From Arenibacter aquaticus (GTDB lineage Bacteria > Bacteroidota > Bacteroidia > Flavobacteriales > Flavobacteriaceae), in the NCBI RefSeq assembly GCF_003957295.1, contig NZ_RQPJ01000002.1:558001-622000 (forward strand): 64,000 nucleotides of DNA. The letters run 5' to 3'. The translations under genes were made by a program, and so were the position numbers. Positions 59,339 to 62,023 of this stretch are shown here, in pieces. Under the pieces are notes generated by a model. It searched no databases, had not been told where the DNA came from, and saw nothing but the letters and a program-made list of their open reading frames with translations. The number at the start of each line of letters is the position of its first letter. The first letter of the stretch is position 1.

Positions 59339-61237
59339 ATGAGCGACGCTATAAAGCATGAGTGTGGAATTTCCTTAATTCGGTTATTAAAACCATTGGA
59401 GTACTATCAAAAAAAGTACGGTACCGCCTTTTACGGGGTGAACAAGATGTACTTAATGATGGAAAAACAACATAACCGAGGCCAGGATGGTGCCGGTTTT
59501 GCCAGTATTAAATTAGATATGGATCCTGGGGAGAGGTATATGAGCAGGGTGCGCTCTATAGACCAACAGCCCATACAGGATATTTTTGCCCAGATAAATG
59601 AAAGAATCAATAATTCGTTCAAGGAACATCCAGAGTATATCAACGACGTAACAAAACAAAAAAAGCACATACCTTATATTGGGGAGTTACTATTGGGTCA
59701 TGTACGCTACGGAACTTTTGGAAAAAACAGTATTGAGAGTGTGCACCCCTTTTTAAGACAAAACAATTGGATGCACCGAAGCCTGATAGTTGCGGGCAAC
59801 TTTAACATGACCAATGTTAATGAGCTGTTCGATAATTTGGTCCAAATAGGACAACACCCCAAAGAAAAGGCCGATACCGTTACGGTCATGGAAAAGATAG
59901 GCCATTTCTTGGACGATGCAGTAGCCAAACTGTACAAGGAAATAAAAAAGGAAGGCTTTAACAAAAGGGAAGCATCCCCTATAATAGCGGAAAGACTTAA
60001 TGTTGCCAAGATCCTAAGACGGGCCGCAAAAAACTTCGATGGCGGTTACGCCATGGCCGGTTTACTTGGGCACGGCGACTCCTTTGTACTAAGGGACCCG
60101 GGAGGAATAAGACCTACCTATTACTATCAGGATGATGAAATAGCCGTGGTAGCCTCTGAACGGCCTGCCATACAAACCGTTTTTAACGTAAGGTTTGAGG
60201 ATGTAAAAGAACTTGATCCGGGCCATGCCATTATCATCAAGAAAAATGGTCAGGTAAAAATCAAAAAAATTCTGGAGCCTACAGAAAGAAAGGCATGCTC
60301 GTTTGAACGAATATATTTTTCCAGGGGAAGTGACAAGGAAATATACCAGGAAAGAAAGATGCTGGGGAAACTGTTGTTCCCCTTGATCCTGAAATCGATC
60401 AATGAGGACATTAAGAATACCGTCTTCTCCTATATCCCCAATACGGCAGAAACCTCCTTTTTTGGGATGGTCATAGCTGCACAGGACTATATGAACAAAA
60501 AGAAGGAAGAGCAAATTCTTTCTATAGGCAGAAAAATAACCCGCGAAGAACTGCACGACATCCTTGAGGTACGCCCCAGAATTGAAAAAGTAGCTATAAA
60601 GGATGCAAAGTTAAGAACCTTTATTACGCAAGACAGTAGCAGGGACGATCTTGTGGCCCATGTATACGACATCTCTTATGGCTCTGTTAAAGAAAACGAC
60701 AATCTGGTAATCATAGATGACAGTATAGTCCGTGGCACTACCCTACAGAAAAGTATACTTAGGATTCTAGACCGACTCTTACCCAAGAAAATAATTGTAG
60801 TTTCCTCTGCTCCACAGATCCGTTATCCCGATTGTTACGGTATAGACATGGCCAAATTAGAGGATTTTATAGCCTTTAAAGCGGCTTTAGCTCTTCACGA
60901 AGAGCGAAACACTATGCACCTAGTGGAAGAAATATACAAGAAATGCCTAACCCAGGTAAACACGCACGACTCAGAAGTAGTGAACTACGTTAAGGAATTC
61001 TATTCCCCTTTCACAGCCGATGAAATTTCTGATAAGATTGGACAATTGTTAAGTCCGCCAGATATTAAAGCAGAGGTACAGGTCATTTATCAAAACATAG
61101 AAAACCTACATGTGGCCTGTCCAAAGAACTTAGGGGATTGGTATTTTACCGGTAATTACCCCACTCCCGGTGGAAACAGAGTAGTAAACAAGGCATTTAT
61201 CAATTTCTTTGAAGGAAAGAACGAACGAGCTTATTAA
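59339..61237 (+). CDS. purF: Amidophosphoribosyltransferase, long form
   Basis: The 632-residue protein starts MSDAIKHECGISLIRLLK; the Cys in HECGI is the glutaminase nucleophile, exposed after removal of a short propeptide as in PurF. GHVRYGTFGKN and RDPGGIRPTYYYQDDE are glutamine-domain signatures, and LVIIDDSIVRGTTLQKSILRIL is the PRPP-binding loop. It would make phosphoribosylamine, the first step of purine synthesis. It is about 130 residues longer than standard PurF (near 500) and may be the second paralogue found in flavobacteria. Confidence 0.88.
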   Translation: MSDAIKHECGISLIRLLKPLEYYQKKYGTAFYGVNKMYLMMEKQHNRGQDGAGFASIKLDMDPGERYMSRVRSIDQQPIQDIFAQINERINNSFKEHPEYINDVTKQKKHIPYIGELLLGHVRYGTFGKNSIESVHPFLRQNNWMHRSLIVAGNFNMTNVNELFDNLVQIGQHPKEKADTVTVMEKIGHFLDDAVAKLYKEIKKEGFNKREASPIIAERLNVAKILRRAAKNFDGGYAMAGLLGHGDSFVLRDPGGIRPTYYYQDDEIAVVASERPAIQTVFNVRFEDVKELDPGHAIIIKKNGQVKIKKILEPTERKACSFERIYFSRGSDKEIYQERKMLGKLLFPLILKSINEDIKNTVFSYIPNTAETSFFGMVIAAQDYMNKKKEEQILSIGRKITREELHDILEVRPRIEKVAIKDAKLRTFITQDSSRDDLVAHVYDISYGSVKENDNLVIIDDSIVRGTTLQKSILRILDRLLPKKIIVVSSAPQIRYPDCYGIDMAKLEDFIAFKAALALHEERNTMHLVEEIYKKCLTQVNTHDSEVVNYVKEFYSPFTADEISDKIGQLLSPPDIKAEVQVIYQNIENLHVACPKNLGDWYFTGNYPTPGGNRVVNKAFINFFEGKNERAY

Positions 61238-61240
61238 CAT

Positions 61241-61289
61241 TTTCATCGATGAAATACACATTTATATGTATTTCATCGATGAAATACAC
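61241..61289. repeat. Nested palindromes and 30-bp direct repeat after purF
   Basis: TTTCATCGATGAAATACAC occurs at 61241-61259 and again at 61271-61289, exactly 30 bases apart. The first half-site is a 14-bp palindrome; the second is part of a perfect 22-bp palindrome (61267-61288). The two copies also pair with each other: 61241-61258 and 61267-61284 form an 18-bp stem with an 8-base loop. It starts 4 bases after the purF stop, so it may act as its 3' hairpin and as a protein-binding site. Confidence 0.75.
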
Positions 61290-61303
61290 CCTTTAACGTC
61301 TTT

Positions 61304-61337
61304 TTGACCATTTAGCTTTTTGGCGCTTGTATTTTAG
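61304..61337 (+). promoter_or_regulatory. Promoter of small RNA copy 1
   Basis: TATTTTAG at 61330-61337 differs from TAnnTTTG at one position. TTG at 61304-61306 lies 23 bases upstream. Five bases separate it from the first conserved base of the unit, the same as in copy 2. Confidence 0.5.
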
Positions 61338-61342
61338 TACTG

Positions 61343-61413
61343 CCATAGCATAAGTAGGTTAAGTATATGGTAAGATTTGGGGCAAAAAAGGTGGAGACTT
61401 CTCCACCTTTTTT
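61343..61413 (+). ncRNA. Putative small RNA, tandem copy 1
   Basis: A 40-base body (61343-61382) is followed by a near-perfect terminator: AAAAAAGGTGGAG at 61384-61396 pairs with 61401-61413 around ACTT. CCATA (61343-61347) pairs with TATGG (61366-61370), giving a 5' stem-loop. The body is 38/40 identical to copy 2 and the promoter has the same spacing. No long conserved reading frame exists: only MVRFG is shared, then the frames diverge. I read it as a ~70-nt RNA with two hairpins. I do not recognise its family; comparison with the Rfam Flavo-1 model is a sensible first test. Confidence 0.6.
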
Positions 61414-61545
61414 ATTGATCAATTTTAAGCCCGGCAGGGATAATGCAGTACAGCGCCAATATTGCACATTTAATCGAACAAGCTGTATTTCAACCTATTA
61501 AAAAGACATTCATCTAAAACCTTTTTCGCACAAGCCTAAACACTT

Positions 61546-61553
61546 TACTTTTG
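61546..61553 (+). promoter_or_regulatory. Promoter of small RNA copy 2
   Basis: TACTTTTG matches TAnnTTTG exactly, with 5 bases to the conserved body, as in copy 1. The -33 region (TTTTTC at 61522) is off consensus. Confidence 0.55.
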
Positions 61554-61558
61554 GAGGA

Positions 61559-61627
61559 CCATAGCATAAGTAGGTTAAGTTCATGGTAAGATTTGGGGAA
61601 AAAGGTGGAGCCATGCTCTGCCTTTTT
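61559..61627 (+). ncRNA. Putative small RNA, tandem copy 2
   Basis: The body at 61559-61598 differs from copy 1 at only two positions. The terminator stem is 61599-61610 with 61616-61627 around a changed loop (CCATG); two pairs have become G-U wobbles, so pairing is kept although the sequence changed. A T-run follows. The 5' stem keeps four of five pairs (CCAT with ATGG). Selection on structure is the simplest explanation. The copy lies 216 bases downstream of copy 1 on the same strand. Confidence 0.6.
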
Positions 61628-61905
61628 ATTTTTTACAAAGTGGCCTAAAAACATACACCAGGGATTAAGCAAGAGTTCATGAAACAATTATTGCCTCTTG
61701 ACCAACCATCATCTACATTAAACGGGTATTATTTTGATCGAACTCCTTTATCCAATTAAGGCCAACCACCTTGCAGATGTCATTATTTCGTGATATAATG
61801 TCGTGCGTACAAGTGAAGCTTCAAAGGGATATATAATTATTCAAAGTTGGGTGTGTGGATTAGAAAAAGCGAAAAAACAATCGCAAACCGCCTACAAACC
61901 AAAAA
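61628..61905. other. Gene-free stretch between the small RNA and tRNA
   Basis: I see no gene here. A 66-codon plus-strand frame (61803-62003) runs antisense through the tRNA and is spurious. The rest shows no repeat or consensus promoter that I can support. Confidence 0.5.

Positions 61906-61945: not shown

Positions 61946-62023
<78 letters not shown>

Follow-up and report, generated by a model that had tools for sequence, protein, structure and literature searches.

Two short, closely similar units lie in tandem on the forward strand of the window, that is, the whole stretch of 64,000 nt from Arenibacter aquaticus that was analysed (Table 1). Alignment of their bodies (61343-61382 and 61559-61598) gives 38 identical positions out of 40, with AT in copy 1 and TC in copy 2 at body positions 23-24, and the distance from start to start is 216 bp, both as the initial annotation had claimed. 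The -7-type box ends exactly 5 nt 5′ of CCATAG in each unit, a spacing that had been pointed out and can be read directly in the sequence, and transcription of copy 1 probably starts at 61342, one base 5′ of the body. Minimum free energy folding returned both the 5′ stem-loop and the Rho-independent terminator that had been ascribed to each unit, with energies of -22.3 and -20.5 kcal/mol, z-scores of -3.3 and -2.3, and equally good folds in 1 and 5 of 200 shuffles for copies 1 and 2, respectively. In the predicted fold, neither the linker nor the apical loop is paired, and the terminator of copy 2, described as altered yet still paired through two G-U pairs, does keep its stem in this way. The pair had been placed between purF and a tRNA-Ala gene. 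The tRNA stands, on the minus strand, whereas the 632-aa ORF on the 5′ side, which ends at 61237, is recognized in Pfam only as a glutamine amidotransferase (GATase_7, 1.5e-7; GATase_6, 4.4e-6); it is here called PurF-like. Directly 3′ of its stop codon, a palindromic direct repeat, TTTCATCGATGAAATACAC, occupies positions 61241-61300 of the window.

Table 1. Features of the tandem units and their 3′ neighbour (window coordinates)
Feature	Position	Strand	Basis or remark
Copy 1 promoter box, -7-type, TATTTTAG	61330..61337	+	sequence; 5 of 6 letters of TAnnTTTG
sRNA copy 1	61343..61416	+	40-nt conserved 5′ domain and terminator; model R1, 93.8 bits; fold
Copy 1 5′ stem-loop (CCAUA...UAUGG), apical loop of AGUAGG type	61343..61370	+	fold, comparison
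Copy 1 linker TAAGATTTGGGG	61371..61382	+	unpaired probability 0.9-1.0; complement present in partner RNAs
Copy 1 intrinsic terminator	61384..61413	+	14-bp arms 61384-61397 and 61400-61413; fold
Copy 2 upstream element TCATCTAAAACCTTTTT	61510..61526	+	~33-50 nt 5′ of body; recurs in relatives
Copy 2 promoter box, -7-type, TACTTTTG	61546..61553	+	sequence; 6 of 6 letters of TAnnTTTG
sRNA copy 2	61559..61631	+	model R1, 93.4 bits; fold
Copy 2 intrinsic terminator	61599..61627	+	stem paired with one U-G and one G-U
tRNA-Ala (ggc)	61946-62022	-	3′ of the sRNA pair

This genome contains four exact copies of the 21-mer core CATAGCATAAGTAGGTTAAGT and none of its reversed control, even with up to three mismatches, which indicates that the units are not there by chance. 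Two of the four copies are those of the window; the other two form a second pair at a distance of 108 kb, on the opposite strand and beside sodA (identified by Pfam Sod_Fe_N and Sod_Fe_C). That is, the array is split into two pairs of opposite orientation ~108 kb apart (G000:C5:619343-727779). Several genomes of the same genus show the same split and others hold three copies together, as in G004 and G008, where the three lie between the PurF-like gene and sodA; such a split would be expected from an inversion that had one of its ends within the array. Zobellia uliginosa carries six copies in a row. In one relative (G215, L057:816-1174), the array includes three additional units of ~150 bp in which the terminator is retained and the 5′ part differs (TCAGCTCCATGATACC...). 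Elsewhere in the A. aquaticus genome, seven copies of CCCTAAATCCTACC within ~1 kb (G000:C19:25516-26527) form what looks like an unrelated local repeat.

A pattern search recovered the sRNA in its own genome, in 17 of 17 genomes of the same genus and in 4 of 7 of the same family, and in none of 15 genomes from other families of the order. A covariance model built from 33 copies (R1) and run over flavobacterial genomes, a check of the kind that the initial annotation had suggested, revealed a family reaching far beyond the window pair: 170 of 199 Flavobacteriaceae genomes have matches at E<1e-8 and 175 at E<=0.01, with one to eight matches per positive genome, often in tandem. In samples of the order (118 genomes) and the class (197 genomes), which overlap and contain some Flavobacteriaceae, all matches of at least 60 bits were in Flavobacteriaceae and the best match outside scored 43 bits. 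Spread beyond the family was considered on the basis of matches of 30-43 bits and rejected, the two best matches from the class sample being devoid of the 40-nt domain. A scan with named genomes gave at least 118 stretches, including ones from Zobellia, Maribacter, Flavobacterium, Winogradskyella, Aquimarina and Salegentibacter. Among the 118 matches listed, both the PurF-like gene and sodA flank the sRNA in 85, only the PurF-like gene in 19, only sodA in 8 and neither in 6, some tiles ending before the neighbouring gene; in the same matches, the PurF-like gene shares the strand of the sRNA wherever it is present (104 of 104) and sodA always lies on the other one (93 of 93). The usual place of the sRNA is thus between these two genes. 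Judged by sequence comparison, the window units are members of an unnamed family of ~72-nt RNA genes present in most of the sampled Flavobacteriaceae genomes.

No Rfam family reaches its gathering score over the units, and in the window only the tRNA does so. Flavo-1, a flavobacterial RNA motif that had been named as one to search for, has no match in the window at gathering score and, at E up to 10, none in the vicinity of the units. Thirty sub-threshold Rfam matches near the units were judged to be driven by the terminators or due to chance. They include STnc40, which scores 37.0 and 35.7 bits (gathering score 45) on opposite strands of the copy 1 terminator palindrome and has no match on copy 2; this match is taken as one to the hairpin, since it falls on both strands of a palindrome and copy 2 is without it. 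No description of this RNA was found in the open-access papers searched, and none of a small RNA from Arenibacter. An Rfp RNA of Flavobacterium psychrophilum other than Rfp18 may already belong to this family (PMC9723704).

Of 388 distinct copies in relatives, 343 have at least five of the six letters of TAnnTTTG exactly 5 nt 5′ of the body; in the same upstream stretches, the background is 292 of 17848 positions (1.6%). Within the ~72 nt of the sRNA, the 5′ domain of 40 nt is nearly invariant and the terminator covaries: among 33 copies, six pairs of the terminator stem have changed on both sides with pairing kept, and no pair of the 5′ hairpin has done so. The linker reads GGTAAGATTTGGG in 310 and the one-base-shorter GGTAGATTTGGG in 132 of 445 copies with at most three mismatches to the template, a tally in which overlapping loci are counted repeatedly and many copies were picked by core matches. 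A coding role was also considered and rejected: ORFs over the units run into the terminators, and the length of the linker varies, one base being lost in many genera, which would break any reading frame. Two features of a trans-encoded sRNA with its own promoter and intrinsic terminator are present, namely a -7 box at fixed distance and a terminator hairpin conserved as structure. The joint conservation of body, box spacing and terminator across genera favours the earlier proposal of separately transcribed RNAs of about 70 nt, and the contrary pattern, a conserved body with promoters and terminators that are not, is not what the relatives display. Upstream sequence varies with position in the array: the copy nearest to sodA has a conserved stretch from -35 to -14 that is absent from first and middle copies. 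Because the upstream sequences differ in this way, copies encoding the same RNA would seem to answer to different signals, as the comparison suggests.

Pairing partners were sought through the unpaired segments. In 19 genomes with the sRNA, the linker complement CCCCAAATCTTACC occurs with at most two mismatches at 1183 places, a count to which the sRNA genes and a repeat family contribute, and its reversed control at 806 (~1.5-fold); in 12 genomes of other families lacking the sRNA there was no excess (149 versus 148). The complement of the apical loop, ACTTAACCTACT, is not overrepresented relative to its reversed control, and its exact matches in this genome are the sRNA genes alone. Of 65 places in this genome within two mismatches of the linker complement, 30 made loci and 26 were read in context, most of them lying inside or antisense to ORFs. 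One site, CCCCAAATATTACC, is situated 90 nt 5′ of a 422-aa ORF (MEKKSTSRRDFV...) both here (L235) and in G016 (L279). It is the only repeated 5′-UTR candidate among the 26 contexts, and the transcript of the ORF is a possible mRNA target.

A stricter partner pattern matched 34 places in 29 of the 199 genomes (control, 10 places), 11 of which were not counted among the partners because they were repeat elements, lay within ORFs or were unclear. An unrelated intergenic repeat has 14 nt in common with the linker complement. A palindromic intergenic repeat of ~105 bp starts with (C/T)CCCAAATCTTACC, an exact or near-exact linker complement, followed by aacttTGCGCnTGGATCCTG (L260-L263, L265, L267-L270, L272, L273 and L251; also L283, L293 and L309). 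Another RNA-like class, the third, is ~150 nt long and has several sites of the CCCAAATC type, one of them in a hairpin loop, and then a terminator (L379 and L380 in G137, L381 in G230, L392 in G056, L388 in G049); these RNAs are possible further decoys. None of seven sources of partner loci gave an Rfam match at gathering score.

The first partner was seen as ACCCAAATCTTACC, with a -7-like box and a terminator. In this genome it (C16:233843) is a separate small gene of ~65 nt between yidC and an mnmA-like gene, unlinked to the sRNA array, with a -7-like box, the sequence ACCCAAATCTTACCAAACC... and a strong terminator, and its relatives have in common a promoter region, TTAGCATACAAA...CTTGACAACT. 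This yidC-side RNA accounts for 18 of the 34 strict-pattern places, in 15 genomes, one of which has four in tandem. With a covariance model of it (R2) and a threshold of 45 bits, 38 of 199 genomes are positive, among them A. aquaticus, and all 38 also have the sRNA; at E<=0.01 the count is 105 of 199, a tally to which weak matches contribute, many of which are sRNA genes read on the antisense strand. The 5′ arm of the yidC-side RNA is antisense to most of the 40-nt domain of the sRNA, the linker of copy 1 together with the preceding GG being the segment complementary to it in the window. Over 39 partner loci, duplex energies, scored with the sRNA copy giving the best energy, range from -27.7 to -47.6 kcal/mol, and none of 200 shuffles for each was equally good. 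Outside the stretch used in the search, all 15 genomes compared have a pairing energy below that of the average shuffle, and in 14 the energy ranks within the top 10% of 500 shuffles; pairing there is strong in some genomes, such as G221 and G213. The partner in this genome pairs well at the linker and weakly elsewhere (49 of 500 shuffles equally good); the linker is unpaired, the partner arm unstructured, and the predicted gain on dimer formation is about -28 kcal/mol. Several partner loci have a mismatch within the linker site (CTTTCC).

Linker and partner agree in type in 21 of the 21 genomes compared, the longer linker going with CTTACC in the partner in 16 genomes and the shorter linker with CTACC in 5. 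The comparison began with 24 genomes, from which G123, G078 and G152 were left out, their pattern matches not being judged partner RNAs; G123 has both linker types. Inheritance of a single pair is not the explanation, as the two partner types are homologous neither in position nor in promoter. Since the 21 genomes are related, the agreement may nevertheless reflect few independent changes of linker and partner, at least one. The gene family, its promoter and terminator, the complementarity over most of the domain and the agreement of linker with partner are results of computation.

In five genomes whose linker is of the shorter type (G147, G054, G155, G115 and G058), the pattern match adjoins a gene for an oligopeptide-type ABC ATPase and forms part of a transcript-like stretch with three to five complementary sites and then, at its end, an ORF of 41-42 aa. 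The sites at these five loci have energies of -18.9 to -43.4 kcal/mol (153 control windows: mean -18.5, minimum -26.7). Twenty sites in multi-site partners were listed and 18 scored; two of those listed, at -18.9 and -20.4 kcal/mol, are no better than control windows, and the rest are at -25 kcal/mol or lower. Four weak R2 matches (L378, L393, L394 and L396) have the same ABC ATPase neighbour and ORFs of 26-36 aa, with peptides of similar C-terminus ending in a KKVF motif. All nine of the ABC ATPase-side loci inspected have an ORF in the range of 26-42 aa whose product resembles the others in its basic, hydrophobic C-terminus. Eight peptides tested have a net charge of +4 to +6 and a high helical moment (1 to 22 of 500 shuffles as high), and the pN/pS ratio of the ORF is 0.51 and 0.47 in frame and higher in the other two frames. 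The pairing sites overlap the start region of the ORF in most of these loci; in L394 the ORF begins 75 nt after the start of the site, away from it. Three peptides compared with Pfam and NCBIfam had no match, and a peptide mRNA of this kind was not found in A. aquaticus.

A conserved sRNA with complementary small transcripts points to a widespread RNA control circuit, in which the sRNA likely acts by base pairing. Our preferred reading, which we consider reasonably probable, is that the two units belong to a Flavobacteriaceae-wide family of ~72-nt antisense sRNAs that would silence mRNAs, with the yidC-side RNA as their decoy. Each copy of the array would be fired from its own housekeeping-type promoter and stopped at its own terminator, and the 40-nt 5′ domain would offer two single-stranded footholds, the apical loop and the linker, for pairing with trans-encoded transcripts. 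The sRNA would silence translation of mRNAs carrying the complement at their start, such as the ABC ATPase-side peptide mRNA in some genera, and the non-coding yidC-side RNA would be a dedicated decoy that ties up the sRNA when the decoy's own promoter fires. Transcription, duplex formation in cells, the direction of control, silencing of the peptide mRNA, the decoy role and the physiological purpose are what we infer from these computations. A clear yidC-side RNA is present in only 38 of 199 genomes and the peptide mRNA is missing from the matches in this one, so no single common target is established. Tentatively, the circuit could be family-wide and independent of protein, the array silencing cationic membrane-active peptides and other translation starts, and at least two, perhaps three, unrelated transcripts evolved as dedicated counter-RNAs (the yidC-side RNA, the multi-site peptide mRNA and perhaps the ~150-nt multi-site RNAs of L379, L381 and L392) tracking the linker; this extension seems to us possible rather than probable.

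The same peptide ORFs could be given a greater part. In a system resembling type I toxin-antitoxin, the array would be a trans-acting antitoxin against a small cationic amphipathic peptide, and the yidC-side RNA a by-product or an anti-antitoxin. The basic C-termini, positive charge and helical moment of the peptides, the in-frame pN/pS ratios and the overlap of sites with the start region in most loci are consistent with this. We nonetheless think it somewhat doubtful: the putative toxin had no Pfam or NCBIfam match in the three cases tried and was not found in this genome, the ORF of L394 starts well past its site, and the pN/pS ratios are just moderately low. The invariance of the 40 nt might, in turn, mark a protein-binding site, the RNA being a sponge or 6S-like. 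Pairing between RNAs alone need not require that the 5′ stem pairs hardly vary, as they do; yet those same 40 nt are mirrored in the partner RNAs, a search of this genome for RRM_1 proteins was negative and Rfam gave no 6S match, and we regard this explanation as rather unlikely. Roles could also be reversed, with the purF-sodA RNAs as decoys and the yidC-side RNA as effector, as its own conserved promoter region and fully unstructured 5′ arm would allow. However, it is the purF-sodA RNA that is broadly conserved, multicopy and nearly invariant and that has at least two unrelated partner types, which makes the reversal improbable. That the units are a decayed mobile element or a repeat without function, as the tandem and split copies and the intergenic repeat resembling the linker complement might hint, is barely credible, since throughout the family the genomic place is fixed, the promoter spacing kept and the terminator covarying.

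Among known systems, the closest likeness to the antisense sRNA family proposed here is with the FopS sRNAs of Bacteroides thetaiotaomicron, for which base pairing with translation starts, action together with the RRM protein RbpB, and deposition in Rfam are reported (PMC11697453). Both families consist of paralogous Bacteroidota sRNAs of ~65-70 nt present in several copies, with housekeeping-type promoters and, ahead of the terminator, a conserved 5′ part for pairing. They are set apart in that FopS is described with a single-stranded 5′ stretch and dispersed copies, whereas the Arenibacter sRNA has a 5′ stem-loop and linker and copies in tandem at one locus (PMC11697453). FopS was absent among Rfam matches at gathering score or at E up to 10, in an Rfam copy that may be without it, and a search for RRM_1 gave no match in this genome and was positive in 2 of 14 control genomes, Bacteroides ihuae included. 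Rfp18 of F. psychrophilum is likewise an sRNA conserved in Flavobacterium with predicted mRNA pairing; it is described as having three stem-loops or more and as targeting proteases, whereas here there is one stem-loop and a terminator (PMC9723704).

RNA regulation in Bacteroidota outside Bacteroides is thinly mapped, and the genome studied here gave no FopS-type RRM_1 protein. A conserved sRNA with near-antisense partners that track its sequence would exemplify an sRNA-decoy pair in long-term co-evolution, possibly with control of a peptide as well, in abundant marine and soil bacteria, and the sequences provide concrete probes for existing RNA-seq data. These bacteria are not known to encode Hfq. 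In type I toxin-antitoxin systems, an mRNA paired by RNA encodes a small, usually hydrophobic peptide, and here too the mRNA of a small cationic peptide may be under antisense control; the sRNA of this family, in contrast, is far from the peptide gene, multicopy and provided with a second, non-coding partner, and the peptide is a putative toxin. Enterobacterial RNA sponges, or anti-sRNAs, are RNAs that pair with an sRNA, a part that the yidC-side RNA would also play; it differs from them as a separate conserved gene whose product is complementary to most of the 5′ domain of the sRNA.
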